Shown: piece after piece, positions 18,756-41,295 of the stretch
Numbering within the stretch: position 1 is the stretch's first letter
Layout of the letters: every line of letters begins with the position of its first letter
From: Micromonospora sp. KC606
GTDB lineage: Bacteria; Actinomycetota; Actinomycetes; Mycobacteriales; Micromonosporaceae
Direction of reading: 5' to 3'
Assembly (NCBI RefSeq): GCF_004348675.1
Contig: NZ_SMKN01000015.1
Span: forward strand, 1-64,000
DNA: 64,000 bases
The notes under the pieces: model-generated
What the model was told of the DNA's origin: nothing
The model's input: only the letters and a program-made list of their open reading frames with translations
Databases searched by the model: none
Made by a program: the position numbers and the translations under genes

Positions 18756-18892
18756 CGACAGCAACGCACTCCTCCCGCCCGAGCGGGGGTGCGTCTCGCC
18801 GGAACGGCGATCCGTGAAGACCGCCGCGGAACGCGCTGTCGCACGGCCGGCAGCACAGCCTCCGGCGGCAGTAGCTTATCGCCGAGCCTCAC

Positions 18893-19351
18893 CGGCCAGA
18901 TGTGCGCCAGGACCTCGCCGTCGACGTCGCGACCGGTCCGGCGCAGGGCGGCCACGCCGAGGGCGTCATACTCCGTCGACCAGCAGACGATCGCGTTCGT
19001 GGCCAGTGTGAGGCACCACATCTGTTCGGTCTGCTGCTCGTGGTGCCGGCGTCGCAGCGCGCCCTCGCCGGCGTACGCGAGGAAGCGGCGCAGAGCGTGC
19101 AGGTTCTCGCCCTTGTTCAGCTGCCGGGCGTTGCGCTGCCGGTAGGTCTCGTCGACCAGGTGGCGGGCGGAGTAGACGGTACGGCGCAGCGCCCCGTACT
19201 CCTCGAGCGCGGACGTGAGCGCGTTCTGCTGCCGCTTCGACGAGCACAGCTTCCCGACGACCAGCGCCGCAGTGGCGTGCCCGCCCTGCACGAACGCGGC
19301 GACCCGCGGCAGGTCGTCCCACATGTTCGTGATCAGGTCCAGGTTCGCCAC
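18893..19351 (-). pseudogene. Tn3 family transposase TnpA, internal C-terminal fragment
   Basis: About 153 residues aligning with residues about 822-974 of the intact transposase at 38269-41295, roughly 85-90% identical by eye (LDLITNMWDDLPRVAAFVQG, NKGENLHALRRFLAYAGEGA). It retains the third catalytic acid (Glu of KGENLHAL) but lacks both catalytic Asp residues and the last 34 residues. Similarity stops abruptly after HIWP at 18893 and near 19345 on the other side. Confidence 0.85.
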
Positions 19352-19375
19352 CCCGGCTTCGACGAGAGCCCCAGC

Positions 19376-26366: not shown

Positions 26367-27262
26367 CTACGGCCGGACCGGCGAGCCGGACGCTTGCGGC
26401 ACAGCTGCGTCGCCGCGTAGCTCCAGCCGCTTGGTCATGTTCAGCTTGACCTCGCCGTACGGGGCGACGTGTGTCCAGAACAGCGGGGTCAGCCCACGCC
26501 GGTCCTCCGGGGCGAGCGCGTCGGCCCAGCCGGGTTGAGCCAGCACGTCCTGCACGAGCAGGGTGTTGACGTAGGCGACGGCGGCCTGCAGGACGTGCAG
26601 GCAGGCCACGGACAGTTCCTGTTCGTCGCGGCGATTGGTGGCGATGTCGCCGCCCTTGCCGTAGAACAGCACCTGGTTGCCACCGTTCCAGCCCTCGGCC
26701 ACGTTCAGTCCGTCATGGATCTCGCGTTGCAGATCCCGGTCGCGCAGGTACCGGGCCACAAAGGCCGTCTTCACGGCGCGGCCGACCTCCAGCATCGCCT
26801 GGTACGTGGGATGGGAGGCGGCGCGGGTGAAGCGGCGCAGGATGGCCTCGGTCGACGCGGTCCCCGTGCGGATCGCGGTCGCGTACTTGATTATCTGGTC
26901 GTACTGCTCGGCGACCAGATCCCAGCGGATCGCGCGGCCCATCATCGCCGGCGCCAGCCCCGGCCAGGCACCGGCCTGCCCAGCGACGGGGCGGTAGAGC
27001 TTGACGTGGTTGATCCGCTTGATCCGCGGGTGCAGGTCGAAGCCGAGCAGCCGAGTGATCCCGAAGCCGATCTCGGACTGGCCGTGGCTGTCGGTGTAGT
27101 TCGCCTCCACCTGCATCGTGGTGCCGTGGCGCACCGCGCCCTCCACCATCGCCGCGACCGCGGCATCCCCACTCGGTCGGCGCCGCGCGGACGAAGTCGA
27201 GCAGGGACCGCTGGGAGCGGGCAGGCAGGTGCTCGTGGTGGACCCGGCTGTCAGTTTCCGAA
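26367..27262 (-). pseudogene. Tn3-family transposase of a second clade, C-terminal fragment
   Basis: About 290 residues of a TnpA clearly different from the one at 38269. The motif EANYTDSHGQSEIGFGI carries the second catalytic Asp, and DGLNVAEGWNGGNQVLFYGK the catalytic Glu; the first Asp and about 700 N-terminal residues are gone. A frameshift near 27180 separates HLPARSQRSLLDFVRAAP from DAAVAAMVEGAVRHG. It ends upstream at the 27-bp inverted repeat at 27249. It cannot be active. Confidence 0.85.
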
Positions 27263-27275
27263 GTCGTGTGCACGG
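27249..27275 (+). repeat. 27-bp inverted repeat, left copy (TetR-hydrolase cassette)
   Basis: TGTCAGTTTCCGAAGTCGTG followed by TGCACGG; identical to the reverse complement of 29274-29300 except for one base. A further CCGAAGT-containing unit follows directly (to 27295) and another, inverted, at 27321-27346. Confidence 0.75.
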
Positions 27276-27394
27276 ATGTCCGAAGTTCTCTGCACCCAAC
27301 CGCGAATACGCTGGTCGGCCGTACAGAGGACTTCGGAAGCTGACACCAGCCACAGTCGCATCAGTTCGACTTCGGCGGTTCACGGATTCGCCGG

Positions 27395-28228
27395 CTACTC
27401 GGTGCCGCGAATGAAGTCGCGGATCAGCTCGGCGGTGCGTTGCGGTTGGTCGCGCATGACCCAGGTGCGGCTCCGTTCGATCAACACAACGCGAGCGTCG
27501 GGCAGGGCCAAGGCGAGGCGTTCGGCATGGCTGACCGGGAAGAGTCTGTCATCGGCGGCCCATGCCACGAGGGCCGGTTTGGTAAAGCCTGCGAGTTCCT
27601 CGGCGATGTCGCACAGGAGGTTCCGTTCGCCGAGAGAGGCGACGAAGGCGCGGGTGTCGCGCCGGATGCCGCTGTCGGAGAAGTAGGCGGCGATCCAGTC
27701 GTCGATGAGGTGGTGCGGAAGTGGCTCGTGGGTCAGCCGGCCGTAACCGCTGGGCAGACGACGCGGGGCCCGTGATCGTAGTGGCACCAGGATGACGCTG
27801 AGCACACCCACTCTGGCCGCAGGAGCCAGCATGCGGAAGATCGGGGGCGGGAAGTTGTCGAACGCCTCGCAGCTGGTGAGGACGAGACGGCCGATCCGCT
27901 CGGCGTGCCGGACGGCGACGATCTGGGCGATGGCACCGCCGGTGTCGTTGCCGACGAGTGTCACTTGGCGCACGCCGAGCGCCTCGATGAGGTCGGCGAC
28001 GACCTGACCGACGCCCTTGATACTCAGATCGACGTCAGGGCGCATCGGGGCGCGATGTGCACCGAGCGGCAGATCCGGGACGATGCAACGGAAGTCTGGG
28101 CGGAGCCGTTCAACGAGCGGCTCCCAGACTCGGCCGTCCTGGAGGAGACCGTGGAGAAAGACGACCGGTTCACCGCCGCCGGTGTCGCGGTATCGCAGGG
28201 CGCCGGCTGGCAACGTCAACTCGGCCAT
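27395..28228 (-). CDS. Alpha/beta hydrolase (haloalkane dehalogenase-like)
   Basis: A 277-residue alpha/beta hydrolase. HG oxyanion region: VVFLHGLLQDGRVWEPLVER. The nucleophile elbow reads VGNDTGGAIAQ, so Asp95 replaces Ser, as in dehalogenases and epoxide hydrolases. At the usual catalytic His the sequence is RSRTWVMRDQP, without His, as in a recurrent actinobacterial subgroup of unknown reaction. Start ATG 28228 (MAELTLPAG). Divergent from the TetR gene with a perfect palindrome between them, so it is probably that regulator's target. Confidence 0.82.
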   Translation of the reverse strand: MAELTLPAGALRYRDTGGGEPVVFLHGLLQDGRVWEPLVERLRPDFRCIVPDLPLGAHRAPMRPDVDLSIKGVGQVVADLIEALGVRQVTLVGNDTGGAIAQIVAVRHAERIGRLVLTSCEAFDNFPPPIFRMLAPAARVGVLSVILVPLRSRAPRRLPSGYGRLTHEPLPHHLIDDWIAAYFSDSGIRRDTRAFVASLGERNLLCDIAEELAGFTKPALVAWAADDRLFPVSHAERLALALPDARVVLIERSRTWVMRDQPQRTAELIRDFIRGTE

Positions 28229-28268
28229 GAGACTCTCGTATGCAATCCATACAGCATGTACGGAATTT

Positions 28269-28285
28269 ACATACAGTCTGTATGT
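28269..28285 (+). promoter_or_regulatory. TetR operator (perfect 17-bp palindrome)
   Basis: ACATACAG-T-CTGTATGT lies between the divergent hydrolase and tetR genes; a weaker related site, CATACAGCATGTA, sits at 28248-28260. The AT-rich stretch around them is the only candidate for promoters of both genes. Confidence 0.75.
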
Positions 28286-28303
28286 AGAGCAAGGGGTGTG
28301 TTG

Positions 28304-28930
28304 ATGACAGGTGGAACGAAACACGGCCTGCGGTCGGCGGCGACCCGGGACCGCCTTGTGGCCGCAGCCCGCGTGCTCTTCGCGGAACGCGGGTACGCGG
28401 GCGTGGGCACCGAGGAGATCGTCGCGGCGGCCGGCGTGACCCGCGGCGCGCTCTACCACCAGTTCCGCGACAAGGCGGACCTGTTCACCAGCGTTGTCGA
28501 AGCCGTGGAGGCCCGGATGATCCAGCAGGTCGCCGAGGAGGTCGGCCACCATGTCGAGGATCCGGTCGCCGGACTGCTCGGTGGGGCCAGGGTGTTTCTC
28601 ACGGTGTGCGCGGAACCTGAGGTTGAACGCATCGTCCTGCGCGACGCCCCCGCCGTGCTGGGGGCCGTAGCCTGGCGGGAACTCAGCAACCGCTACAGCC
28701 TCGGCCTCATTCAGCAAACGCTGCGCAGCGCGATGGAGGCCGGTGCGATCACCCCTCAGCCGCTGGCTCCGCTCGCGCATGTGCTTATGGGCGCCCTCGA
28801 CGAGGCGAGCCGGTACGTTGCGACGGCCGATGATCCCGATTCCGCGCGGCAGGAGTGCCTCCACGCTCTCGCCCAGATCGTCCACGGGCTCCGAAGCGCG
28901 TCCACTCACCACCCCGACATCGCGGCGTGA
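28304..28930 (+). CDS. TetR/AcrR family transcriptional regulator
   Basis: A 208-residue TetR repressor. HTH: RDRLVAAARVLFAERGYAGV and AAAGVTRGALYHQFRDKADL. The C-terminal ligand domain contains AHVLMGALDEASRYVA, common in actinobacterial TetR proteins. ATG 28304 follows AAGGGG. The divergent arrangement with the hydrolase and the palindrome at 28269-28285 support local control of both genes. Confidence 0.92.
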   Translation: MTGGTKHGLRSAATRDRLVAAARVLFAERGYAGVGTEEIVAAAGVTRGALYHQFRDKADLFTSVVEAVEARMIQQVAEEVGHHVEDPVAGLLGGARVFLTVCAEPEVERIVLRDAPAVLGAVAWRELSNRYSLGLIQQTLRSAMEAGAITPQPLAPLAHVLMGALDEASRYVATADDPDSARQECLHALAQIVHGLRSASTHHPDIAA

Positions 28931-28968
28931 ACCGGTCACGGTCAGCACTCCACCACGGCGGGGCAGCA

Positions 28969-29160
28969 ACAGGTACAGAGGACACCTCCGACGCGGAGGC
29001 GCTGTATCGGCGGGCCGTCGACTGCGGCGCCACCGACGCGCTGCGAGAGCTGGCCCAGTTACGGGAACAGGCCGGGGACACCGCCGTCGCTGATCGGATA
29101 CGGAGGTTTGGGCTGACAGGAGCCGGTGTCGTCGCGGCCGAATTAGATTTCAGGTCGTAA
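28969..29160 (+). pseudogene. Tetratricopeptide-like C-terminal remnant
   Basis: An open stretch without its own start, encoding DAEALYRRAVDCGATDALRE, then LAQLREQAGDTAVADRIRRF and a stop at 29158-29160. The pattern is that of a Sel1/TPR repeat protein's last repeat. It is cut on its 5' side directly after the TetR gene. Confidence 0.45.
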
Positions 29161-29273
29161 ACCTGCGGGCAGGTGCCTGGCTGGGGTACGGGCCAAACGA
29201 CGGGTAGTGCACACGACTTCGGAGCAACCCGATGTCCGAAGTCGTCTGCACACGGGCCCTCCACCAGGGGACC

Positions 29274-29300
29274 CCGTGCAGACGACTTCGGAAACTGACA
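29274..29300 (-). repeat. 27-bp inverted repeat, right copy
   Basis: Reverse complement reads TGTCAGTTTCCGAAGTCGTC followed by TGCACGG, one mismatch from 27249-27275. Two more CGACTTCGG/CCGAAGTCG units lie at 29207-29252, mirroring the left cluster. Confidence 0.75.
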
Positions 29301-29324
29301 CTGGCCGCGACCGCAGATTAGGTC

Positions 29325-29350
29325 GTCCCGGAAACCCTCGTTTCCGGGAC
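29325..29350 (-). terminator. Hairpin after the dehydrogenase gene
   Basis: GTCCCGGAAA (29325-29334) pairs perfectly with TTTCCGGGAC (29341-29350) around a 6-base loop. On the minus strand it follows the stop of the dehydrogenase gene at 29413. Confidence 0.6.
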
Positions 29351-29412
29351 GGCCTCCGCGTGCTCGGCTCCGAACCTTGCAACCGGGTCGGGCCGAAGCG
29401 CGCCGCTGCCTA

Positions 29413-30291
29413 TCAGCCCGCCGCAGTGGTCCGGAACAGCTGGACGACTCCGGTGATGTTGTCCTGGCCGTGCCCTTGGCCGATCGCCTGCTCGTAGGTG
29501 CCGGCGGCGGCGTGGGTCAGGGGAACGGTGCAGAGGCGCGAGGCGGCGTCTGCGGCGGCGTATTGCAGATCCTTGGCTACCAATTCGATGGGGAAGGCGG
29601 CGGGGAAAGTGTGGCCGAGCATCGCGGTGGCGGCGGTGGCTACGGCCGGGCTTGCCACTGGGGTGGCGGCGAGTACCTCGATGGCGCGGGCCGCATGCAG
29701 GTCGGTGTCGTGTAGTGCGCCGAGCAGTTCGGCGACGGCGGCGATCTGGACGGCGAACAGGGAGTTGACGAGTAGCTTCATCTGCGAGCCGGTCCCGGCC
29801 GGTCCCATGTAGTGCACGGCGGCGCCGATCTGTCGCAGCACCGGCTCGACCCGGTGTGCAACCGCCGGCTGCCCGCCGACGAGGAAGATCAGTGTGCCGG
29901 CATCGGCCTGGGGGCGTGAGCCCAGCACCGGAGCGTCGAGGAAGTCCACACCGCGCTGTGCACACCGGCCGGCGAGCTCGGCGGCGAAGGCCGGGGTGAC
30001 GGTGGAACAGTCGACGGCGACCGTGCCCGGCGCTATCGCTGCCAGCGCGCCGATGTCCGGGGCCAGCCAGACGCTGCGGCCGGCGTCGTCATCGCGCAGC
30101 ATGCTGATCACGAGGTCGCGCTGCTGCGCGGCTGCCGCTGGCGTCGACGTCGAGGTGGCGCCCGCCTCGACCAAGGCCCGAGTCGCCTCGGCCGTGCGGT
30201 TCCACACGGTGAGGTCGTGTTCGCCGGTGGCGAGCAGTCGGCGGGCCATCCGCGAGCCCATCGCGCCCAGTCCCAGGACAGCGATCTTCAT
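29413..30291 (-). CDS. NAD(P)-dependent beta-hydroxyacid dehydrogenase/imine reductase-like
   Basis: A 292-residue protein of the 3-hydroxyisobutyrate dehydrogenase superfamily: Rossmann GLGAMGSRMARRLLATGEHD at the N-terminus, substrate-binding DFLDAPVLGSRPQADAGTLI, and the catalytic Lys in TGSQMKLLVNSLF (G-x-x-x-K pattern). Reactions in the family include oxidation of beta-hydroxyacids and reduction of imines or succinic semialdehyde. Followed by a hairpin; the SDR gene lies upstream on the same strand with 48 bases between, so an operon is likely. Confidence 0.87.
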   Translation of the reverse strand: MKIAVLGLGAMGSRMARRLLATGEHDLTVWNRTAEATRALVEAGATSTSTPAAAAQQRDLVISMLRDDDAGRSVWLAPDIGALAAIAPGTVAVDCSTVTPAFAAELAGRCAQRGVDFLDAPVLGSRPQADAGTLIFLVGGQPAVAHRVEPVLRQIGAAVHYMGPAGTGSQMKLLVNSLFAVQIAAVAELLGALHDTDLHAARAIEVLAATPVASPAVATAATAMLGHTFPAAFPIELVAKDLQYAAADAASRLCTVPLTHAAAGTYEQAIGQGHGQDNITGVVQLFRTTAAG

Positions 30292-31167: not shown

Positions 31168-32103
31168 GTGGATGTTCTTGGTGACGTACTGGCGCTGGCG
31201 CAGGTCGACGCGAGCCTCATGGCGACCTTCGACGCGCGAGCCCCCTGGGCCATCGAACTGCCGGCCCGCCACGGTGCCACGTTCCACGCCGTGGTCGCAG
31301 GCACCTGCTGGTTCACCGCCGACGGCGCGCCGGCGCGCCAACTGGCCCCGGGCGACCTCGTGCTGCTGCCCGCCGGCGCGCGCCACCAGTTGTCCACCCA
31401 CCCGGGCCTGCCGACGCGCCGTTTCGACGAAGACCTCAAGCGCAGCCTCATCCGACCCGACGGTGAACTGGTGCTCGACGGGCCGGGCGCACGGACCCGG
31501 ATCCTGTGCGCGGGCTACCACTACGCGACCGACATTCCCCATCCCGTGCTGGGTCTGCTGCCGCCGGTACTGCACGTTGCCACCGCCCAGCCGGAAAGCG
31601 GACCATGGCTACGCACGGTTCTCGACCTGCTGGCCCACGAGACCCGCAGCCGCGCCGCCACCGGCTCAGGCACCGCCGCGCTGCGCCTGCTTGACCTGCT
31701 GCTGATCCACGTCGTCCGGGCATGGCTAGACACCGAAGGTGACACCATGGACGCCTCGTGGCTGCGCGGCCTACGGGACCCGCTCACCGCTCGCGTCCTG
31801 GCCGTGCTGCACGAGCGACCCGGCCACGACTGGACCCTGGACACCCTCGCCGCGAAGGTCAACGTCTCCCGCGCCACCCTCGCCCGACGGTTCACCCACC
31901 ACGTCGGCGAACCCCCACTGACCTATCTCACCCGCTGGCGCCTCGACGTGGCCGCCCGCAAACTACGCGACACCACCCTCCCGGTCGCCGCCATCGCCCA
32001 CGACGTCGGCTACACCTCCGAATTCGCCTTCAACCGCGCCTTCACCCGCACCCACGGCCAACCACCCGGCCGCTACCGCCGACACGCCACCACAAAAGGG
32101 TAA
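31168..32103 (+). CDS. AraC family transcriptional regulator (cupin_6 type)
   Basis: A 311-residue regulator. The N-terminal cupin-like sensor is seen in FHAVVAGTCWFTADGAPARQ and LAPGDLVLLPAGARHQLSTH. The C-terminal pair of HTH motifs is DTLAAKVNVSRATLARRFTH and LPVAAIAHDVGYTSEFAFNR with the AraC signature ending GQPPGRYRR. GTG 31168 is the likely start. It is divergent from the SDR/dehydrogenase operon. Only 33 bases separate its stop from a transposon end, so this module lies at the island border. Confidence 0.9.
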   Translation: MDVLGDVLALAQVDASLMATFDARAPWAIELPARHGATFHAVVAGTCWFTADGAPARQLAPGDLVLLPAGARHQLSTHPGLPTRRFDEDLKRSLIRPDGELVLDGPGARTRILCAGYHYATDIPHPVLGLLPPVLHVATAQPESGPWLRTVLDLLAHETRSRAATGSGTAALRLLDLLLIHVVRAWLDTEGDTMDASWLRGLRDPLTARVLAVLHERPGHDWTLDTLAAKVNVSRATLARRFTHHVGEPPLTYLTRWRLDVAARKLRDTTLPVAAIAHDVGYTSEFAFNRAFTRTHGQPPGRYRRHATTKG

Positions 32104-32136
32104 CCACCAGACGGCAAGCCTCCGAGCTACCCACCT

Positions 32137-32174
32137 CTTAGCGTTGGTTTTTCGCTGGAAACTACGGACGGGCC
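32137..32174 (-). repeat. 38-bp Tn3-type terminal inverted repeat (copy C, subtype CCAGCGA)
   Basis: Starts CTTAGCGTTGG and ends ACGGACGGGCC; the reverse complement matches copy A at 7527 in the subtype-specific CCAGCGA segment. It marks the right edge of the 7.5-32.2 kb mosaic. The outside 5 bases (TCCGG) do not match those outside copy A. Confidence 0.75.
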
Positions 32175-32251
32175 TCCGGTGTCGACGCCGAGGCGCACCC
32201 GCCGGCGGTGAGGACACCGGCCACCGCGACTACGAGCAGGCGACACTTCAC
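32162..32251 (-). pseudogene. Lipoprotein gene cut after its signal peptide by the transposon end
   Basis: GTG 32251 starts KCRLLVVAVAGVLTAGGC, a signal peptide with a lipobox (LTAGGC) followed by Ala/Ser. After six to ten more residues the frame enters the terminal repeat and stops at TAG 32162-32164. Only the N-terminal 29 codons remain. It lies downstream of the erythromycin esterase gene on the same strand, perhaps once its operon partner. The missing body is not found at the other repeats in this window. Confidence 0.55.
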
Positions 32252-32289
32252 GAGGAAGTCCCTTCAACAAGAATCGGGCCGACTGCCGG

Positions 32290-33519
32290 TCAGGCGTCGC
32301 CGAACGTTGAGGGAGCCTGGCGCGGCGGGGTGTCCTTGACGAACACGACTCCGTCGATCCTGGTCAGGTGGTCCGGGTCCAGCGGGATGTAGCCGAACCA
32401 GGGGGACACGCGGGGCGTGGGCCTCACACCGCCGAGGGCGGCGGCCAGCCGGCGGGCGTCGACGAGGTAACGGTCCTCCGGCAGCGCGTACAGAAGCCCT
32501 TCGATGGTGTCCGGGGGTGGGGTGTCCACACCGTGGTGGCGGATCGTGCCGAGGGCCGTGGCCAGGAAGGCGTACCCCTCACCCAACCGGGCGCTGACGA
32601 GCGCCCCTGCGCTCCACCATTCCAGCGGCCGGTCGCCCATCCGCATCGTGCTCCTGTCCCGCTGGAGATGGCTGTTGTGGGCGTGCACCAGCGTCGGGCC
32701 CCGCTCGGCGATGGCGAGCAGGTTGGCGGCCATCATCGAATCCCGCACGCTCAGCAGCCGCGCCATGCGGCTCGGTGACGTGTCGGCCATCGCAGAGTGG
32801 TAGCGCAGCAGGCCGGTCGCGGTACGCGCGTACAGGAGCGCCCGCTCCCGGTCGTCCTCGGAGGAGGCCGCGATCAGGTGCGGCGTGTGCGCGTCGAGCA
32901 GCGCCACCATGTCGTCGGCGAGCAGTCGCAGCTGTGTGGCCTCGGGTGTCTGCCCCGCGGACTGGCACGGGTCCATCATCGCCGCGGGGTTGGTCCACCG
33001 GTCGTCGGCGCCGAGCAGGCGGTCGAGCGTCTCCCCGGTGCAGGGGAGCAGGTCGGCGTCCACCCGGGCCGCGAGGTAGCCGTGGAGTGCGGTGAGGGAC
33101 CGCCGAGGGCTCGCGGCGTGGGTGATCTCCAGTGGGCCGTCGAAACCGGCGAAGCGCAGCCGCTCGGCGGCAGGCCGACCGTCGTTGTACGCGCGCATCC
33201 AGCGCACCAGCTCACGATTGCCCGTGAAGGCGCCCCACCCGTGGCTGAATCCGCGTTGCATGACCTCGTCGAGGGTGCCCGTGCCCGAGGTGACGTAGTC
33301 GTCCACGACCAGGCCCGTCACGCAGTCGCTCTCGATCGCGATCGTCCGGTAGCCCCCCTGCTCGACGAGTTGCCGGAAGAGCTCGTTACGCACGTCGAGC
33401 AGGACGTCCTCGCCGTGGGTGGGCTCACCCAGGGCGAGCAGCCGCGGCCGGGCCGGGAGCAGTACCAGGAGGCTGGCGGCGTCGACGGCGTGGGTGGTGT
33501 CCTTGATACCAGCAGTCAT
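32290..33519 (-). CDS. Erythromycin esterase family protein
   Basis: A 409-residue protein of the Ere family, which hydrolyses the macrolide lactone ring in resistant strains; distant members act on other substrates. Family landmarks are LLALGEPTHGEDVLLDVRNE with the active-site His, YRTIAIESDCVTG, WMRAYNDGRP, RFAGFDGPLE, and VHAHNSHLQRD with the second conserved His. The usual length is about 400 residues, so it is complete. Divergent from the TioE-like regulator with a palindrome between the starts. Macrolide resistance is plausible but not proven. Confidence 0.88.
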   Translation of the reverse strand: MTAGIKDTTHAVDAASLLVLLPARPRLLALGEPTHGEDVLLDVRNELFRQLVEQGGYRTIAIESDCVTGLVVDDYVTSGTGTLDEVMQRGFSHGWGAFTGNRELVRWMRAYNDGRPAAERLRFAGFDGPLEITHAASPRRSLTALHGYLAARVDADLLPCTGETLDRLLGADDRWTNPAAMMDPCQSAGQTPEATQLRLLADDMVALLDAHTPHLIAASSEDDRERALLYARTATGLLRYHSAMADTSPSRMARLLSVRDSMMAANLLAIAERGPTLVHAHNSHLQRDRSTMRMGDRPLEWWSAGALVSARLGEGYAFLATALGTIRHHGVDTPPPDTIEGLLYALPEDRYLVDARRLAAALGGVRPTPRVSPWFGYIPLDPDHLTRIDGVVFVKDTPPRQAPSTFGDA

Positions 33520-33521
33520 GC

Positions 33522-33541
33522 GTTCAACGGTATCGTTGAAC
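33522..33541 (+). promoter_or_regulatory. Operator between erythromycin esterase and TioE-like regulator
   Basis: GTTCAACG-GTAT-CGTTGAAC, a perfect 8-base inverted repeat with a 4-base spacer, immediately upstream of the esterase start. A third half-site, GGTTGAAC, follows at 33545-33552. Positioned to control both divergent genes. Confidence 0.72.
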
Positions 33542-33577
33542 CATCGGTTGAACCCTCCCGGCGATATTGGCAGGACA

Positions 33578-34369
33578 TTGCGGCGGAACCTTCAAGACGG
33601 CGGACGGCTCAGGCCGGTTGACCTGGCGCGCGGGCATGGTCTGTCGACGCAGGCGATTAGGAACTACGAGGCGGCCGGCATCCTTCCGGGGGCTGAACGC
33701 ACCCCCACCGGGTACCGCGTCTACACGCCGTTGCACGCGAGGGCCCTGGACGCGTTCCTCGCGCTCGTGGCCGGACACGGCCACCCGACGGCCACGTCGA
33801 TCATGCAGGCGATCAACCGGGACGCGGTCGAGGCGGCACTCCGGCTCATCGACGAGAGCCACGCCCAGCTTCTCGACGCCCGCCGCACCCTCCAAGCCGT
33901 CGAAGCCGCGCTTCGCGACCTCGCGCCCGTGCCGCAGGAACGCGGCGGAACGTTCGTCGGTCCGCTGTCGAGTAGGCTCGGCATCCGCCCAGCCACCCTG
34001 CGTAAATGGGAACGCGCCGGATTGCTCCAACCCCTCCGCGACCCCCGGACGGGCTACCGGGTCTACCGCGCGGCCGACGTGCGCGACGCCCTGCTGGTCC
34101 AGCAGCTCAGGCGGGGCGGCTACCTGTTGGAGCAGATCGCCCCGCTGATCGCCCAGGTCCGCTCCGCCGGAGGCGTCGCACCGCTTGGGTCGATGCTGCG
34201 CGACTGGCGCACCCGCCTCTCGGCCCGCAGCCGCGCCATGCTCACCGGCGCCGCCGCACTCGACGCCTACCTCAACTGCCGAGCAACCCCGTCCGGAGGC
34301 AGGCCGAGTACCGACGCGACCGCTTCGTCAATCGCGGACGCGATTCGGCCGCTCAGCAGCTTCCGCTGA
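33578..34369 (+). CDS. TioE-like regulator with two MerR-type HTH domains
   Basis: About 264 residues. The first MerR-like HTH is RPVDLARGHGLSTQAIRNYE with GYRVYTPLHARALDAFLALV; a second, LGIRPATLRKWERAGLLQPL with GYRVYRAADVRDALLVQQLR, follows a helical linker. This double arrangement is that of the TioE group, named from the thiocoraline cluster. The start is uncertain: no ATG/GTG suits; TTG 33578 or TTG 33548 are candidates. It presumably regulates itself and the erythromycin esterase. Confidence 0.82.
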   Translation: MRRNLQDGGRLRPVDLARGHGLSTQAIRNYEAAGILPGAERTPTGYRVYTPLHARALDAFLALVAGHGHPTATSIMQAINRDAVEAALRLIDESHAQLLDARRTLQAVEAALRDLAPVPQERGGTFVGPLSSRLGIRPATLRKWERAGLLQPLRDPRTGYRVYRAADVRDALLVQQLRRGGYLLEQIAPLIAQVRSAGGVAPLGSMLRDWRTRLSARSRAMLTGAAALDAYLNCRATPSGGRPSTDATASSIADAIRPLSSFR

Positions 34370-34557
34370 CCGTCGCGACACCAACTCCGATCGCTTTCGA
34401 CCTTCGGCGTCATCCACCGTCTACCGGCACCTGGCGAGGTACGGGTCCCCTGGCCCGTTCGCCACGTCCACGACGGAGAGCGTGGAGCAGCGGACCGATC
34501 GGCCCCGCCCTGCACAATCCGATTGCGGCGACGGCGGGGGCCGCCTAACCTGCCGCG

Positions 34558-35043
34558 GTGCTGATCAGGGAATTCGACGAGGTTGACTGGCCGGCGGTGC
34601 GGACGATCGTCGAGGAGGTCGTCAGGGCCGGTGGCACCTTCCCGTACGACCCGGCATGGCCCGCCGAGGTGCTGCGGGAGGTGTGGGTGGAGGCCGCGCC
34701 GGGCCGTACCGTCGTCGCGGTCGACGGCGACCGTGTTCTCGGCACGGCGAAGATGGGCCGTAACCGTCCTGGCCCCGGCGGGCACGTCGCCACCGCCAGC
34801 TTCATGGTCGCGGCGCACGCGCGGGGTCGGGGCGTGGGCCACGCGTTGGCCGCGCACGCGCTGGCCTGGGCCCGCGAGCAGGGGTATGCGGCGATGCAGT
34901 TCAACGCGGTGGTCGAGGGCAACGAGGCCGCGGTGGGGCTGTACCGGCGGCTCGGGTTCGCCGTGATCGGCACGGTGCCGGAAGCCTTCGCCCACCCGAC
35001 CCGAGGGCGGGTGGGCCTGCACGTCATGCACCGCTTCCTGTGA
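34558..35043 (+). CDS. GNAT family N-acetyltransferase
   Basis: A 161-residue acetyltransferase: LIREFDEVDWPAVRTIVEEV opens the fold, the acetyl-CoA motif is VAAHARGRGVGHALAAHALA, and the final strand NEAAVGLYRRLGFAVIGTVP is typical of L-amino-acid or phosphinothricin-type acetyltransferases (YncA-like). GTG 34558 directly precedes the domain. Substrate unknown; a detoxification role would fit the neighbouring efflux and esterase genes. Confidence 0.87.
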   Translation: MLIREFDEVDWPAVRTIVEEVVRAGGTFPYDPAWPAEVLREVWVEAAPGRTVVAVDGDRVLGTAKMGRNRPGPGGHVATASFMVAAHARGRGVGHALAAHALAWAREQGYAAMQFNAVVEGNEAAVGLYRRLGFAVIGTVPEAFAHPTRGRVGLHVMHRFL

Positions 35044-35126
35044 CTTGAGCTGGCAGGATGGGCCGGTGGGCACGTGTGGCACGCCCACCGTCACACCGAC
35101 GGTTCTTCCTGGTCCTTCTCTGAGCG

Positions 35127-36359
35127 TCACCGGGCCCCCGCCGTCAGGTCGGCGTCGGCGGGGGAGCCGGCCCGCCAGGTGAGCCGGCGGACACTGGGCA
35201 CGGCTGCGGTGCCGGCGCAGGCGACCCCGACGAGTACCGCTGCCCCGATCAGCGGCGCGGGGGTGCCCCAGGCCCGCGCGGCGAGCGGGGCGACGGCGTA
35301 ACCGAGCGGCATCGCGCCCAGCGACACCAACCAGTCGTACGAGGTGACCCGGGCCAACACGTGCGGCGGGAACTGTTCCTGCACCACGGTTTCCCAGATC
35401 GGGTTGAGGAAGCCCAGGGCCGCCAGCGCCAGGCCGTACGCGCCGATCACCACCGGTGCGGGGGCGGCCAGGGCGAGTAGCAGCAGCGGCGCCGCGTACG
35501 TGGCCAGGGCGAGGTTGCCGACGAGGACGGGCCTGCGGGGGCGTACCCGCGCGGCGAGCAGTGAGCCGGCCAGCAGCCCGACCGCGCCGGCCTGGAGCAG
35601 CAGGACCCAGACGCCTTCGCCACCGAGGTGGCCGACGGCGACGGCGGGGCCGAGGGTGGTCAGCACGGCGGCGGCGCCGTTCCACACGCCGTGTCCGACG
35701 AGGCTGGTCCAGTACCAGTTTCGGTCGCGCACCTCCCGCCAGCCGCGCGCCAGGTCGTCGCGGATCGACCGGCGTGGCACGGGCACGTGCCGTACCCGGA
35801 CGAGCGCCAGCAGCATGGCACTGGTCGCGAAGGTGAGCGCGTCGAGGACGAACGCCCAGCCGGGGCCGGCGCCCCAGATGAGCAGGCCGGCCAGGGCGGG
35901 TCCGGCGAGTCGACTGATGTTGGCGGTGACGCCCATCAGGGCGTTGGCGCGTTGCCGGGCGTCGGCGTGAACGGTGCCGGCGACCAGCGGGGAGGCGGTG
36001 GGGATGGCGAACGCCGAGGCGGCTCCGCCGACTGCGGAGGCCACCGCGATGTGGGTGAGGGACGGGCCGGCGTGGAGTAGTTCGACGCCGATGGCCAGGT
36101 GGGCGGCGCACCGTACCAGGTCGGTGGTGAGGGCGACCCGGCGTGCGTCGAAGCGGTCGGCCGCCACGCCGCCGAGTGGTAGCAGCAGCAGCCGGGGCAC
36201 CATCGCGCAGGCCAGCACCACGGCCAGTGCGCCGGTGGAACCGGTGGCCCGCAGGATCGCCAGGGTCAGGGCGGCGGGCACGACGGCGTCGCCGAGAGCG
36301 GAGATGGTGCGGCCCAGGAAGAGCAGCCGGAAGGCGGGGAGCCGCAGGGGTGAGGTCAC
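35127..36359 (-). CDS. MFS transporter (enterobactin/macrolide exporter-like)
   Basis: A 410-residue transporter with twelve hydrophobic segments of the DHA3 (MefA/EntS-like) type: SPLRLPAFRLLFLGRTISAL, then GALAVVLACAMVPRLLLLPL, GGVAADRFDARRVALTTDLV, and the mid-loop RRSIRDDLARGWREVRDR. Such proteins export macrolides, siderophores or other drugs. GTG 36359 is chosen because upstream codons are unrelated. Divergent from a MarR repressor with a palindrome between them. Confidence 0.88.
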   Translation of the reverse strand: MTSPLRLPAFRLLFLGRTISALGDAVVPAALTLAILRATGSTGALAVVLACAMVPRLLLLPLGGVAADRFDARRVALTTDLVRCAAHLAIGVELLHAGPSLTHIAVASAVGGAASAFAIPTASPLVAGTVHADARQRANALMGVTANISRLAGPALAGLLIWGAGPGWAFVLDALTFATSAMLLALVRVRHVPVPRRSIRDDLARGWREVRDRNWYWTSLVGHGVWNGAAAVLTTLGPAVAVGHLGGEGVWVLLLQAGAVGLLAGSLLAARVRPRRPVLVGNLALATYAAPLLLLALAAPAPVVIGAYGLALAALGFLNPIWETVVQEQFPPHVLARVTSYDWLVSLGAMPLGYAVAPLAARAWGTPAPLIGAAVLVGVACAGTAAVPSVRRLTWRAGSPADADLTAGAR

Positions 36360-36395
36360 GGCCCGAAAATTTACTTCGACACCGAACCTTTCGCT

Positions 36396-36410
36396 ACCGA
36401 TTAATTCGGT
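36396..36410 (+). promoter_or_regulatory. MarR operator
   Basis: ACCGA-TTAAT-TCGGT, a perfect dyad in an AT-rich gap between the divergent MFS and marR genes; a related half-site with ACCGAA lies at 36381-36386. Confidence 0.6.
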
Positions 36411-36429
36411 GCCGGCGTACAGTCTGCGC

Positions 36430-36921
36430 ATGTCCGAGCACGACCGCACCGACCAGCACGTCGCGCGTTGGCTGCCCGTGCTGCCCGATCTGGATCCGGA
36501 CGTCGAGGGTGCGGTCGTGCGTATGTCGGTTCTCACGAAGCACCTGCGGGCGGTCAAGGATCGATCGCTGGCCGACCGGAACCTTCCCGCCCACGAGTAC
36601 GACACCCTGCACGCGCTGGCCGGTCGGCGCGGTCGGGCCGCGCCCACCGAACTCGCCGACGACCTGCGGATGGCCCCTGCCTCCGTCACCGCCCGGGTCG
36701 ACGCACTGCTCCGTCGCGGGTTCGTCCGCCGGGTCCCGTCGGCGGTGGACCGTCGGCGGGTCGACGTCGAGCTGACCGAGGCGGGCCGCGCCGCCTGGCA
36801 GGCGGCCATCGCGGTGGTCGCGGGGGAGGAGCACCGGCTGCTCGGCGTGCTGACCGCCGATGAGCGGCGGCTGTTGGCCGACCTGCTGCGCCGGGTGGCG
36901 CGGGGCGCCGAGCGTAGGTAA
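36430..36921 (+). CDS. MarR family transcriptional regulator
   Basis: A 163-residue MarR repressor: helices at LPAHEYDTLHALAGRRGRAA, recognition helix DDLRMAPASVTARVDALLRR, and wing VRRVPSAVDRRRVDVELTEA. The conserved DRR of the wing is present. ATG 36430 lies 20 bases after the dyad. Divergence from the MFS exporter suggests repression of that pump, relieved by a ligand. Confidence 0.9.
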   Translation: MSEHDRTDQHVARWLPVLPDLDPDVEGAVVRMSVLTKHLRAVKDRSLADRNLPAHEYDTLHALAGRRGRAAPTELADDLRMAPASVTARVDALLRRGFVRRVPSAVDRRRVDVELTEAGRAAWQAAIAVVAGEEHRLLGVLTADERRLLADLLRRVARGAERR

Positions 36922-37085
36922 CCCTCGGTGGCTCCCGCGGCGCTGCGTGACGGCGTCACGGCTCGGACCACGTGGCGGTGCGCCGACGAGGGCCGCCCGC
37001 GACCACGGCCTCTGCCGGCGGGTCGGCCTCCTGTCGGCCAGCCGTCGAACGATCCGGTCCGAGACGATCTTGTTAGCCTTCGAGC

Positions 37086-37556
37086 ATGACCTCGTGCGCT
37101 CCGGGCGGCGGCCCCGACCTGATGTTCCTGCTCGCATGGGCCAGCAACGCGCTCATGGCCGAGCACGCCGCCGGCGTGGCGCGGATGGGCATCTCCCCAC
37201 GGGCGCACTGTGTGCTGCTCAAGGCGCGCCCGGGCGGGCTGACCCAGCGCCAGATCGGTGACCTGTGCGGCATCGACAAGACCACCATGGTCGTCACGCT
37301 CGACCAGTTGGAGGCTGCCGGTCTGGTGCGTCGCCGCCCGTCACCGACCGACCGCCGTGCCCGGCTGATCGAGGTCACCACCGAGGGAGAGCGGGTGCTC
37401 GGCCAGGCGCAGGAGATCGCCGCCAGGATCCAGCAGGATGTGCTGTCGGCGCTGCCGGAGGCTGACCGCGAGGTGTTCCTGCGGTCGATCAACAGCCTGG
37501 TCGCCGGCCGGCTCGCCGGTGGCGGGTGCGGCCCGGGGAGCCGGCCCGCCTGTTAG
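37086..37556 (+). CDS. MarR family transcriptional regulator
   Basis: A 156-residue MarR protein: ALMAEHAAGVARMGISPRAH, then LTQRQIGDLCGIDKTTMVVT as recognition region and RRRPSPTDRRARLIEVTTEG as wing. Cys residues near the HTH (LCGI) might allow redox sensing. It lies 73 bases upstream of the DUF6069 membrane gene, on the same strand, with an inverted repeat between them. Confidence 0.88.
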   Translation: MTSCAPGGGPDLMFLLAWASNALMAEHAAGVARMGISPRAHCVLLKARPGGLTQRQIGDLCGIDKTTMVVTLDQLEAAGLVRRRPSPTDRRARLIEVTTEGERVLGQAQEIAARIQQDVLSALPEADREVFLRSINSLVAGRLAGGGCGPGSRPAC

Positions 37557-37565
37557 TTGGGAGGA

Positions 37566-37589
37566 AGATAGTACTGAACAAGACTATCT
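37566..37589 (+). promoter_or_regulatory. Inverted repeat upstream of the DUF6069 gene
   Basis: AGATAGT (37566-37572) and ACTATCT (37583-37589) form a perfect 7-base inverted repeat with a 10-base spacer, an expected MarR operator geometry, in an AT-rich patch followed by GAGGAG before the ATG. Confidence 0.65.
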
Positions 37590-37629
37590 GATACGGTCGT
37601 ATGCGTCTTCCCCCGACCGAGGAGCACGC

Positions 37630-38043
37630 ATGACCGTGATCGCCCACCCCTCCACCGCGACCCCGTCACTGCGCCGCCGCGCGCTCGGCGTGGCCGCCGC
37701 CGTCCTGGCCCCCGCGCTCGTCTGGGTGATCGGCGCGATCGCCGGGGTCGACTACACCGTCGAGAACCCGGGGCAGCCGGCCTTCGTGGTCGGCCTCGCG
37801 CCCGTGGCGATCTTCTCTCTCGGCTCGGCGCTGGTCGGCTGGCTCGGGCTGGTCGCCCTGGAACGCCTGGCCCGTCGCCACGCCGCCACGACCTGGATCG
37901 TCCTCGCCGTGGCGCTGACCCTGCTCTCCCTCCTGCCCGTTGTCGCCGCCGAGGCCAGCATCGGCGCCAAGGTCGCGCTGGGTGTCGCGCACCTGGCCGT
38001 GGCCGCGCCACTGATCACGTTGCTGCCCACCCGCTCCCGCTGA
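37630..38043 (+). CDS. DUF6069 family four-TM membrane protein
   Basis: A 137-residue membrane protein with four helices: RRALGVAAAVLAPALVWVIG, then FVVGLAPVAIFSLGSALVGW, TWIVLAVALTLLSLLPVVAA and VAHLAVAAPLITLLPT. DUF6069 proteins are frequent beside MarR and TetR regulators in actinobacteria; function unknown. ATG 37630 has a GAGGAG-type ribosome binding site. Followed by a hairpin. Confidence 0.8.
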   Translation: MTVIAHPSTATPSLRRRALGVAAAVLAPALVWVIGAIAGVDYTVENPGQPAFVVGLAPVAIFSLGSALVGWLGLVALERLARRHAATTWIVLAVALTLLSLLPVVAAEASIGAKVALGVAHLAVAAPLITLLPTRSR

Positions 38044-38079
38044 ACACGGCACGGTGCGCCCCTGTCCCCGCGGGGACGC

Positions 38080-38114
38080 CTGGCGCCGGTGGTCACGACG
38101 GTCGCCGGCGCCAG
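38080..38114 (+). terminator. Hairpin after the DUF6069 gene
   Basis: CTGGCGCCGG (38080-38089) pairs perfectly with CCGGCGCCAG (38105-38114), 37 bases after the stop and 36 bases before the transposon end. Confidence 0.6.
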
Positions 38115-38145
38115 AACGTGCGGGACCAGGCTCGCGCACGTGGAC

Positions 38146-38150
38146 AGAAG
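38146..38150. repeat. Target site duplication, left copy (AGAAG)
   Basis: AGAAG precedes the left 38-bp end; the identical AGAAG follows the right end at 44683-44687. Five bases is the Tn3-family duplication length. Confidence 0.9.
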
Positions 38151-38188
38151 GGCCCGCCCGTAGTTTCCAGACCAAAAACAACGGTAAG
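38151..38188 (+). repeat. 38-bp terminal inverted repeat, left end of complete Tn3-family transposon (copy D)
   Basis: Begins GGCCCGCCCGTAG and ends AACGGTAAG. It is identical to the reverse complement of 44645-44682 except at one position near the inner end (GGTAAG versus GCTAAG). Confidence 0.92.
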
Positions 38189-38268
38189 AACTGAGGGTTG
38201 ATCAAGCTCTGTCCTGAGCCCTAGCGTGCCGTCCGTTTGGTGACGGTCGATGCTCAGGCGGTGGGTTC

Positions 38269-41200
38269 GTGGCGACTCAGGATGTGTTCTCGGCGGAGGA
38301 ACTGGCGCGGCTTCGGGGCTTCCCGGAGATCAACCGGGCTGAGCTGATCCGGTACTTCACGTTGACCGGTGCGGACGAGGCGTTCGTGCGCCAGTTCCGC
38401 ACTGGCCGCAACGTGCTGGGTGTGGCGGTCCAGCTGTGCTCGCTGCCGTGGCTGGGGTTCGTGCCCGATGAGGTGGCGTTGGCGCCGGATGCCGTGGTGG
38501 GCCGGTTGTCGCAGCGGCTCGGGATCGCGATGGGTGAGTTGCGCGGGTACGGCGAGCGGGAGCAGACCCGTACGGATCATCTGCGTGAGGTGGCCGGTTA
38601 CGCCGGCTGGCGGTCGATGAACACCGCCGAGTGGAAGGACCTCGACGAGTTCCTGTTCGCCAGGGCGATGGAGCATGACTCGCCGAAGCTGCTGTTCCGG
38701 TTGGCCTGCGAGTACCTGCTGTCGTCGCGGGTGCTCCGGCCCGGGGTGATCCTGTTGCTGCGGCGGGTGGCCGCGGCTCGGGCTCACGCGAGGACGGAGA
38801 CCTGGTCGCGGGTGCGGCATCTGCTCTCTGACCGGCGGTGCGCTGAGCTGGATCTGTTGCTGGTCCCGGATGCCTATCTCGGCCGGACGCCGCTGGCGTG
38901 GCTGGGTGTGGGGCCGACGTCGTCGAGTCCGGCGGCGGTGAAGGCGGAGTTGGAGAAGCTGGCCTATCTGCGGCGCCTGGACGCGCACACCGTGGACCTG
39001 TCGATGCTGCCGGTGGAGCGGCGCCGGTTCCTGGCCGGGGTCGGCCGGCGGTTGACGGGGCAGGCGTTGCAGCGGCGGGAGCCGGAGCGCCGGTATCCGA
39101 TCCTGCTCACGCTGCTGTCGCAGTCGGCCGTCGATGTGCTCGACGAGACGCTGCTGCTGTTCGACCAGGCGATCAGCGGCCGGGAGGCGGCGGCGAAGCA
39201 GAAGGTCGCCGAGGCCTTGGCCGAGCGGGCCAAGGGCGGCGAGAACCGGCAGGCGCTGCTGGACGAGATCCTGACCATCGTGCTCGATACCGGGATCGGT
39301 GACGAGCAGATCGGCGGCATGTTGCGCATGAGCATCGGCCTGGACCGGATGCGCGCCGCGTGGGCTGAGCGCCGCGAGCGGCTGCGCCGCGATCACGGTC
39401 AGCTGAGCATGCTGGATGCGTCGATGTCGTACCTGCGCCAATTTGCCCCGGCCGTGCTGGCCGCGGTCGGGTTCGACGGTGGGCCCGGCACCGAGCAGCT
39501 GATGCAGGCCGTGGGGATCCTGACGGGTCTGTACGCGGCCGGTGCCCGCAAGGTGCCGGCCGACGCGCCGGTCGGGTTCGTGCCGGTGAAGTGGGCCGGC
39601 TACCTGGTCGCCGCGGAGCAGGCCGGCGACGTTACTGCGTATCGCCGGTACTGGGAGCTGGCCGTGCTGGTGGGCCTGCGTGACGGGCTGCGTTCCGGTG
39701 ATGTGTTTGTGCCCGGGTCGCGCCGGTACGCCGATCCGGCGTCGTTCCTGCTCACCCCGCAGGCGTGGGCGCCGCAGAAGGTGGAGTTCTGCCACCTGGT
39801 CGGCAAACCGGTCGAGGCCGCCGACGCGCTCGCGGCGGCCCACGACGAGCTGCACACCGCCCTGGCCGATCTGGAGACCCAGCTGGCGAAGGGCAACCCG
39901 GGCGAGGTACGACTCACCGACGACGGCGAGCTGATCATCCCGCCGCTGACCGCGGAGGACGTACCCGCCGAGGCCGATGCGCTGCGCGCCGAGCTGGCCG
40001 CGATGCTGCCGCGGGTGCCCATCGCGTCGGTGCTGGTGGAGGTCGACGCGCGGACCGGTTTCACCGATCACCTGGTGCATGCCGGCGGGAAGGTCGCCCG
40101 GCCGGCCGAGCTCAAGCGCAACTTGATGTATGTGATCATCGCGGAGGCCACGAACATGGGCCTGTCCGCGATGGCCGAGTCCTGCGGCGTGCCGTACGAC
40201 GTGCTCGCCTGGACCGCCGAGTGGTACTTCCGGCCCGAAACCCTGGAGGCGGCCAACGCCGCGGTGGTCAACTACCACCATCTGCTGCCGCTGACCCGGG
40301 CGTTCGGCTCGGGCACCCTGTCCTCCTCGGACGGGCAGCGGTTCCCGGTCAAGGGCAAATCCATCACCGCCCGGCACCTGTCGCGGTACTTCGCCCGCGG
40401 CCAGGGCGTCTCCACGTACACCCACGTCTCGGACCAGCACTCGACCTTCGACACGAAGGTCATCGTCGCGACCGCGCCGGAGTCGCACTACGTGCTCGAC
40501 GGACTGCTCGGCAATGAGACCGACCTGCCCGTGTTCGAGCACGCCACCGACACCCACGGCGCAACCCTGGCGAACTTCGCCCTGTTCGACCTGGTCGGCA
40601 AACAGCTCTCGCCGCGCATCCGCGACCTCGGGAAGATCACCCTGTACCGGACCGGGCCCCGCGCTGACTTTATGGACCGCTACCCGCGCGCCGGGGCGCT
40701 GCTGACCCGGCGGCTGAACCTGGACCTGATCACGGACATGTGGGACGACCTGCTGCGGGTCGCCGCGTCGGTGCAGGGCGGGCACGCCACGGCGGCGCTG
40801 GTGGTCGGGAAGTTGTGCTCCTCGAAGCGGCAGCAGAACGCGCTGACCAGCGCGATCAAGGAGTACGGGGCGCTGCGCCGCACGGTCTACGCCACCCGAT
40901 ACGTGGCCGACGAGACCTACCGGCGGCGCATCGCCCGGCAGCTGAACAAGGGCGAGAACCTGCACGCCCTGCGCCGCTGCCTCGCGTACGCCGGCGAGGG
41001 CGCGTTGCGACGGCGGCACCACGAGCAGCAGAGCGAGCAGATGTGGTGCCTGACCGTGGCCACCAATGCGATCGTCTGCTGGTCCACGGAGTACCACGGT
41101 CTCGGCGTGGCCGCCCTGCGCAGAGGCGGCCGCGACGTCGACGACGAGGTCCTGGCACACATCTGGCCGACCCACCATGAGAACGTGCACTTCTACGGCA

Positions 41201-41295
41201 CCCACTCGGTCGACATCGACGGCGAGCTCGCTCAGCTCGACACCGACGGCTACCGGCCGCTACGGCTGATCGAGGCCACCTCGGCACGACGCTAA
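38269..41295 (+). CDS. tnpA: Tn3 family transposase TnpA
   Basis: A full-length 1008-residue Tn3 transposase that catalyses replicative transposition. The N-terminal DNA-binding region has FSAEELARLRGFPEINRAEL and RYFTLTGADEAFVRQFRTG. The DDE triad is Asp593 (LVEVDARTGF), Asp722 (THVSDQHSTF) and Glu896 (NKGENLHALRR). No stop or frameshift. GTG 38269 lies 80 bases inside the left end, a normal distance. A truncated relative (18893-19351) is nearly identical over 153 residues. The antisense strand is open by codon bias only. Confidence 0.95.
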   Translation: MATQDVFSAEELARLRGFPEINRAELIRYFTLTGADEAFVRQFRTGRNVLGVAVQLCSLPWLGFVPDEVALAPDAVVGRLSQRLGIAMGELRGYGEREQTRTDHLREVAGYAGWRSMNTAEWKDLDEFLFARAMEHDSPKLLFRLACEYLLSSRVLRPGVILLLRRVAAARAHARTETWSRVRHLLSDRRCAELDLLLVPDAYLGRTPLAWLGVGPTSSSPAAVKAELEKLAYLRRLDAHTVDLSMLPVERRRFLAGVGRRLTGQALQRREPERRYPILLTLLSQSAVDVLDETLLLFDQAISGREAAAKQKVAEALAERAKGGENRQALLDEILTIVLDTGIGDEQIGGMLRMSIGLDRMRAAWAERRERLRRDHGQLSMLDASMSYLRQFAPAVLAAVGFDGGPGTEQLMQAVGILTGLYAAGARKVPADAPVGFVPVKWAGYLVAAEQAGDVTAYRRYWELAVLVGLRDGLRSGDVFVPGSRRYADPASFLLTPQAWAPQKVEFCHLVGKPVEAADALAAAHDELHTALADLETQLAKGNPGEVRLTDDGELIIPPLTAEDVPAEADALRAELAAMLPRVPIASVLVEVDARTGFTDHLVHAGGKVARPAELKRNLMYVIIAEATNMGLSAMAESCGVPYDVLAWTAEWYFRPETLEAANAAVVNYHHLLPLTRAFGSGTLSSSDGQRFPVKGKSITARHLSRYFARGQGVSTYTHVSDQHSTFDTKVIVATAPESHYVLDGLLGNETDLPVFEHATDTHGATLANFALFDLVGKQLSPRIRDLGKITLYRTGPRADFMDRYPRAGALLTRRLNLDLITDMWDDLLRVAASVQGGHATAALVVGKLCSSKRQQNALTSAIKEYGALRRTVYATRYVADETYRRRIARQLNKGENLHALRRCLAYAGEGALRRRHHEQQSEQMWCLTVATNAIVCWSTEYHGLGVAALRRGGRDVDDEVLAHIWPTHHENVHFYGTHSVDIDGELAQLDTDGYRPLRLIEATSARR

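Follow-up and report, generated by a model that had tools for sequence, protein, structure and literature searches.

A probable transposase-less Tn402/Tn5053-type element with a TetR/hydrolase gene pair in Micromonospora sp. KC606

In the actinobacterium Micromonospora sp. KC606, a stretch of 64,000 nucleotides (positions 1–64,000 of contig NZ_SMKN01000015.1; referred to below as the window) contains a divergent TetR/hydrolase gene pair enclosed by facing inverted repeats at 27249–29300. This locus raises the question of what the repeats delimit: a mobile cassette, a segment inverted by recombination at the repeats, or a passenger of the Tn3-type element whose transposase fragment lies to its left. 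According to our analysis, 27249–29300 is very probably a non-autonomous, defective, transposase-less element of the Tn402/Tn5053 type ('res-site hunter') that carries the gene pair; class 1 integrons belong to the same kind of defective element. Genomes, contigs and loci are denoted below by G, C and L followed by a number.

The unit measures 2,052 bp between its outer repeat ends. Its arms (27249–27275 and 29274–29300) form an inverted repeat of 27 nt that is complementary at 26 of 27 positions (96%), and no 27-mer inverted match exceeded 24/27 when 26500–30200 was shuffled 60 times with dinucleotides preserved. A 21-bp core pattern matched three times in the window and not at all in 100 shuffles. 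Two further 17-bp units are present at each end (left, 27279–27295 and 27321–27337; right, 29235–29251 and 29207–29223), so that the two ends together hold six units related to TCCGAAGTCGTSTGCAC. When the whole draft genome (6.66 Mb, 429 contigs, with the window inside the 69,237 bp contig C66) was scanned for TCCGAAGTCGTCTGCAC with up to two mismatches, only the six end units and one place on contig C111 were returned. An earlier, sequence-only reading of the locus had described arms differing at one base and two extra units per end, both of which were confirmed, and had called the arrangement of these units similar at the two ends, which was not. Followed inwards from the terminal TGTC, the left end consists of a forward unit, a second forward unit (+22) and a unit of opposite direction, which is a terminal repeat in its own right, whereas the right end consists of forward, reverse (+41) and forward (+69) units. 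This unlike layout of the two ends is the diagnostic feature of the unit.

The same layout was found in Tn402 (Tn5090) of plasmid R751, the intI1, resolvase, TniQ, TniB and Mu-transposase-C genes of which are annotated at 31911–38967. At its integron-side end (class B) two sites are spaced by 23 bp; the tniA-side end (class A) has sites at 0, +42, +69 and +101. The window unit was aligned with it end by end and is like it in both end layouts, two of the two putative binding sites being kept at the B end and three of the four at the A end. The right terminal repeat could also be aligned with those of complete relatives. The features of the ends are as follows.

27249–27273, + strand: left 25-bp terminal inverted repeat, type B (IRi/IRo-like); no mismatches to TGTCAGTTTCMGAAGTCGTSTGCAC; aligned with the integron-side end of R751 Tn402.
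27279–27295, + strand: second site of the left end, transposase-binding-like; two mismatches; at +22 bp (Tn402 integron-side counterpart at 23 bp).
27321–27345, − strand: extra internal IRt-type terminal repeat; three mismatches; its +42 site is 27279–27295.
29207–29223, − strand: third site of the right end (forward, at +69); no mismatches; position as in Tn402.
29235–29251, + strand: second site of the right end (reverse, at +41); no mismatches; Tn402 counterpart at +42.
29276–29300, − strand: right 25-bp terminal inverted repeat, type A (IRt-like); no mismatches to the consensus used; alignable with the tniA-side end of R751 Tn402.

Arrays of transposase-binding sites at both ends have been described for Tn7, Tn5090, Tn5053 and Tn552 (PMC8649781). 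Since the layout is that of two unlike Tn402 ends, the repeats were read as transposon ends and not as recombinase or Tn3 sites, and they are almost certainly of the Tn402 type.

Between the ends of R751 Tn402 lie tniA, tniB and tniQ together with a resolvase gene and an integron. By contrast, tblastn searches with tniA, tniB and tniQ gave no match in the element or the window apart from a 12-aa piece of TniB (E = 0.91), in agreement with the earlier statement that no transposase lies inside. In the window's draft genome (G000) there was no match to TniA or to PF09299 (Mu-transpos_C); with this model the control set was silent and 8 of 23 other records matched. Resolvase searches gave no match in the element (the res site itself was not searched for), PF00239 had none on contig C66 and the best resolvase tblastn hit in the window had an E of 0.05. 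Of the Tn402/Tn5053 traits, the 25-bp terminal repeats and the unlike site arrays are present; tniA, tniB, tniQ and tniR were not found.

The sequence-only reading had proposed that the repeat be sought elsewhere and that other genes be looked for between such repeats. A collection-wide scan for TGTCAGTTTCMGAAGTCGT returned 60 stretches, 46 of them from Arthrobacter and other Micrococcaceae (judged by their titles), the remainder including Nonomuraea and Brevibacterium. One or more class B ends (+22/23) occurred in 41 of the stretches and one or more class A ends (+40–42, mostly with +68–70) in 14; either class occurred in 48 and neither in 12, some of which (e.g. L074, L075 and L083) lack a 17-bp unit within three mismatches and look like chance matches. 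The Arthrobacter-type elements (L117, L118, L091, L073 and others) have the same end types as the window element. L117 and L118 are complete (8,960 bp with duplication TTCGA and 9,764 bp with duplication ATGCA, respectively), each with a B end, an A end and tniA beside the latter. Pfam matches in L117 comprised Mu-transpos_C, TniB, TniQ, a resolvase and an RHS cargo protein, and TniA, TniB and TniQ of L118 are 87–97% identical to those of L117. Plasmid records matching the L117 TniA numbered 4,847; the 40 listed, spaced evenly through them, included ten full-length matches at 64.3–67.6% identity, all ten on gammaproteobacterial plasmids, the others being partial or more distant, and one of the partial matches (74% covered, 67.7% identity) is annotated as a Tn402-like transposase.

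Fifteen inverted end pairs were found in the loci examined (13 without the two of the window). The flanking 5-bp duplication was perfect in seven pairs, 4/5 in four (both window pairs, L020 and a 3,567-bp pair on one Arthrobacter contig) and 3/5 or 1/5 in four. No match to TniA, TniB or TniQ was obtained in five of the seven perfectly duplicated pairs (1,027, 2,897, 4,250, 4,483 and 4,996 bp) or in three other long pairs that were tested (3,567, 2,505 and 5,014 bp). The cargo of these tni-less elements is varied (an MFS transporter with an ArsR-type regulator, PadR and NERD proteins, a sigma factor), and Pfam recognized nothing in three of the eight cargo proteins scanned. Seven of these eight elements, unlike that of the window, contain a resolvase gene in whole or in part.

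Within the genus of the window, the terminal repeat was found within three mismatches in 3 of 159 other genomes, and in an order-level sample 4 of 397 genomes, that of the window included, matched within two mismatches. In another species of the genus (L157), B and A ends lie 3,474 bp apart with no tniA, tniB or tniQ match, as in the window element; it differs in its cargo (a 557-aa repeat-protein open reading frame), in having an inner resolvase gene and in lacking a duplication, and part of a resolvase gene lies at the outside of its B end. TniA searches matched 12 of 160 genus genomes, the nearest (46–50% identity; G152, G103 and G192) being short pieces and the others distant, at 26–34%. 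On contig C131 of G152 (L129, L159), a stretch of ∼0.7 kb holds a B-type end, a 5' fragment of tniA and degraded sites of the A type; this locus is an internally deleted Tn402-type remnant.

The position of resolvase genes relative to the ends was also tabulated. On the outer side, 14 of 49 B ends have a resolvase match at a distance of up to 300 bp, directed away from the element in all 14, against 3 of 27 A ends; on the inner side, at the same distance, the counts were 6/47 and 12/28. L142 and L052 are the same place, so that 13/48 is the fairer figure for the B ends, and some strains contribute several of the loci. The outward resolvases at B ends are as expected of res-site hunters: as published, these insert at res with IRo on the side closest to the resolvase gene of the target, generate 5-bp direct repeats and can also use non-res sites, though inefficiently (PMC7765201). 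The window element is at odds with this rule today, no resolvase match being present in its flanks. To its left lies the C-terminal part of a tnpA of Tn3 type (fragment 26367–27159). On a Streptomyces linear plasmid, a fragment of the same tnpA family (L151:3194–3993; 73% identity over 509 bp) likewise neighbours a B-type end; its orientation agrees with that in the window and its breakpoint differs. Res-site hunters are known to nest in the res of carrier transposons, e.g. Tn6603 (PMC7765201). Tn6603 is a transposon of Tn3 type. It is plausible that the window element inserted into a carrier of this kind, the res and resolvase of which were later lost.

Among the other loci, L073:6185–7211 (1,027 bp) has A and B ends and the duplication GCCTT, with a resolvase as the only identified gene; it is a resolvase-only Tn402-type unit. 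At L018:5379–6802 and L064:1928–3514 resolvase genes alternate with Tn402-type ends, an IRt end lying no more than ∼20 bp from where the next resolvase match begins, which looks like a stacking of insertions on each other's resolvase/res units. Two A-type ends of G413, situated in inverted copies of a 6.3-kb block, were considered as evidence of transposition and rejected: the block begins ∼37 bp outside the end and is a duplication of a larger stretch.

By the arrangement of its sites, the left end of the unit is of the IRi/IRo type and its right end of the IRt type, both being arrays of TniA-binding-type sites, with the TetR/α/β-hydrolase pair standing where the tniA-tniB-tniQ-tniR genes would be. 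The unit is probably no longer able to move by itself. TniA, TniB and TniQ supplied in trans by another element in the cell could mobilize it: TniA would pair the two unlike ends and join them to a target, with a preference for res sites to which their own resolvase is bound, insertion would leave a 5-bp duplication and the cointegrate would be resolved by host recombination or by the resolvase of the target.

Several results weigh against this reading, beginning with the target duplication.

27244–27248, no strand: possible left copy of a 5-bp target duplication, CCGGC; weak, 4/5 match to 29301–29305.
29301–29305, no strand: possible right copy, CTGGC; weak, 4/5 match.

For a single comparison, ∼3% of random 5-mer pairs from 22–34 kb match as well as these flanks; both end pairs of the window (the outer pair and a 97-bp pair described below) score 4/5, eight of the 15 end pairs have no perfect duplication and the flanks of L157 (GCCAC and CAGGT) show none. 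The unit contains three terminal repeats and not two, and the fourth right-end site (+101 in Tn402) is not recognisable. There was no resolvase match in the flanks or beside the B end, and no second copy of the unit in 160 genus genomes. To look for an empty site, 27160–27248 was joined to 29306–29400 with one presumed copy of the duplication dropped. The window itself matched over each half and matches with E ≤ 0.01 were obtained in 124 of the 160 genus genomes, all of them short among those listed, so that no convincing empty site was found; some matches span the junction (G028, query positions 59–109, 80% over ∼51 positions, E = 1.9 × 10⁻⁴; also G007 and G033), which were not counted because they are too weak and GC-rich. 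The element looks stranded, given that no tni genes and no adjacent resolvase were found, the 4/5 duplication and the unrecognisable fourth site. Alternatively, a complete Tn402-type transposon may have decayed in place, its tni genes being deleted after insertion and the 2,052-bp unit never having moved as such. This explanation, which overlaps the one preferred here, is a serious contender to which we would give a little less than an even chance. The unrecognisable fourth site and the imperfect duplication speak for it, as does G152 of the same genus, in which a 5' fragment of tniA survives with a B-type end on one side and degraded A-type sites on the other; on the other hand, no tni remnant was found in the window, and the tni-less relatives with perfect duplications show that small units of this kind do occur as insertions. 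Decay in place and transfer as a small unit are not distinguishable from these data. The earlier suggestion of a non-autonomous mobile cassette therefore stands as to kind, on the Tn402/Tn5053 end layout and the tni-less relatives with perfect 5-bp duplications, and does not extend to movement of this copy as a 2,052-bp unit, the duplication of which is 4/5 and for which no convincing empty site and no second copy were found.

The sequence-only reading had also offered inversion controlled by recombination at the repeats, and an invertible or excisable cassette acted on by a site-specific (serine) recombinase would account for facing repeats with repeated units, many relatives of which adjoin resolvase genes. 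The resolvases at B ends, however, lie outside and read away as targets would (14/49) or lie inside near A ends (12/28); the two ends are unlike, in the layout of Tn402 ends, which belong to the transposase-binding-type arrays already described (PMC8649781), and the contig of the window yielded no resolvase match. Inversion is accordingly very improbable. For the same arrays, a role as serine-recombinase res sites had been considered because many matches lie beside recombinase genes; it was rejected because tniA loci bear the A-type array, complete elements have both end types with duplications and R751 has the same layout. Slightly less probable still is a native origin of the repeats in the Tn3-type element with the tnpA fragment 26367–27159, as its ends or its res, the operon then being its passenger; this is the outcome that the sequence-only reading had named as fatal to its proposal. 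Adjacency and the L151 tnpA fragment beside a B-type end could be cited in its favour, yet adjacency fits nesting in a Tn3-type carrier equally and the breakpoint in L151 differs. The repeat and its layout match Tn402, the same ends bound tniABQR elements and no such end occurs in L121, the 8.7-kb locus of a Pseudonocardia tnpA homologue (the homologue's own ends were not mapped). Nor does the cassette begin exactly where tnpA is cut, as had been stated: DNA similarity to tnpA stops at 27152–27163 in the 30 records listed of 286 (at ∼27159 in a pairwise alignment), ∼85–89 bp before the element. Of the 89 bp in between, a 30-aa reading gave only two matches (E = 2) and, as DNA, only short stretches of the examined loci matched.

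Together with the left end (27249–27273), the third terminal repeat at 27321–27345 forms an inverted, ends-only pair of 97 bp, and its +42 site coincides with the +22 site of the left end. In a complete element both inner sites are direct repeats on one strand, so that deletion between them would leave exactly this 97-bp remnant. The repeat would thus fit an ends-only scar of an earlier element that had shrunk by deletion between direct TniA sites; the cargo would then be flanked by this scar and by the IRt of a second element, and the outer repeat of the scar would serve as the left end. Variant ends in which a same-direction unit at +31/32 replaces the +42/+69 pair were seen at L018:6802, L046:5895, L064:3514 and L097:3397 and look like an analogous deletion between direct units within the IRt end. 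Two very small end pairs, L089:2725–2799 (75 bp) and L060:255–468 (214 bp), neither with a matching duplication, look like ends-only remnants comparable to the 97-bp pair.

Defective Tn402/Tn5053-type elements that keep their ends without a working tni module, as in the window, include class 1 integrons and Tn6606: In0 and In2 keep only tniA and moved when the tni genes were supplied in trans, and Tn6606 is a defective element of this type (PMC7765201). The window element differs in its cargo, a TetR/hydrolase pair in place of an integron or mer remnant, in its actinobacterial host and in that no tni remnant was found. Actinobacterial Tn7-like transposons have been catalogued, with exchange between Micrococcales and Proteobacteria (PMC8649781). 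As an actinobacterial relative, TnRErm46 of Prescottella equi was considered and rejected, its transposase being of the IS481 family and its repeats different (PMC6794481); a B-type end is present in the plasmid that carries it. No description of tni-less Tn402-type cassettes in actinobacteria was found among the papers listed in searches of the open-licence PMC literature. The finding extends this class of defective elements, of which class 1 integrons are members, to an actinobacterial genome with ordinary regulatory and metabolic cargo, and an apparent 'inversion cassette' becomes a testable case of mobilization in trans. The two unlike site arrays provide a sequence signature for finding transposase-less members, which a survey that scans around tnsB, as described in PMC8649781, would by design omit. 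It is conceivable, if unlikely, that actinobacteria carry a sizeable population of transposase-less Tn402-type cassettes, each with its own small gene set, which stack via supplied res sites and are driven by TniABQ in trans. Many of them would have a resolvase gene just inside the IRt end, down to the 1,027-bp element. As the family seeks out res sites, each inserted cassette would then supply the next landing site, and host genes between a scar and a second end could be captured, a serine-resolvase-seeded analogue of integron arrays; the three-repeat structure in the window suggests such a capture.

The cargo comprises the following features.

27395–28228, − strand: α/β-hydrolase, 277 aa (Abhydrolase_1, E = 1.3 × 10⁻²¹).
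28268–28286, no strand: palindrome TACATACAGTCTGTATGTA, 19 bp, between the divergent genes; perfect about its central base.
28304–28930, + strand: TetR-family regulator, 208 aa (TetR_N, E = 1.1 × 10⁻¹⁷; TetR_C_41, E = 1.9 × 10⁻³²).

The divergent operon with its own palindrome noted in the sequence-only reading is thus present. The palindrome is likely to be a TetR operator, through which the regulator would control the hydrolase gene. The best solved-structure match of the hydrolase is 7dq9, followed mostly by haloalkane dehalogenases. Its activity is uncertain because, in the alignment with 7dq9, Asp replaces the usual nucleophile Ser and Thr occupies the position of the catalytic His; judged from these residues, the product may not be a standard hydrolase. 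Relatives of both cargo proteins (40–46% identity) adjoin in four of seven loci tested, divergently in G043 (L005) and in tandem on one strand in G048, G040 and G056 (L002, L003 and L007). No end unit closer than three mismatches was found in these loci (∼3.1–3.3 kb each).

Three Tn3-type transposase regions are present in the window (18887–19360, 26451–27158 and 40030–41202), one in a 1025-aa frame and two partial, which marks it as a layered mobile region. Downstream of the TetR gene, 28855–29160 is the C-terminal part of an open frame with no Pfam match, which we take to resemble the end of a tetratricopeptide-type protein; this frame end suggests that the cargo region is a mosaic.

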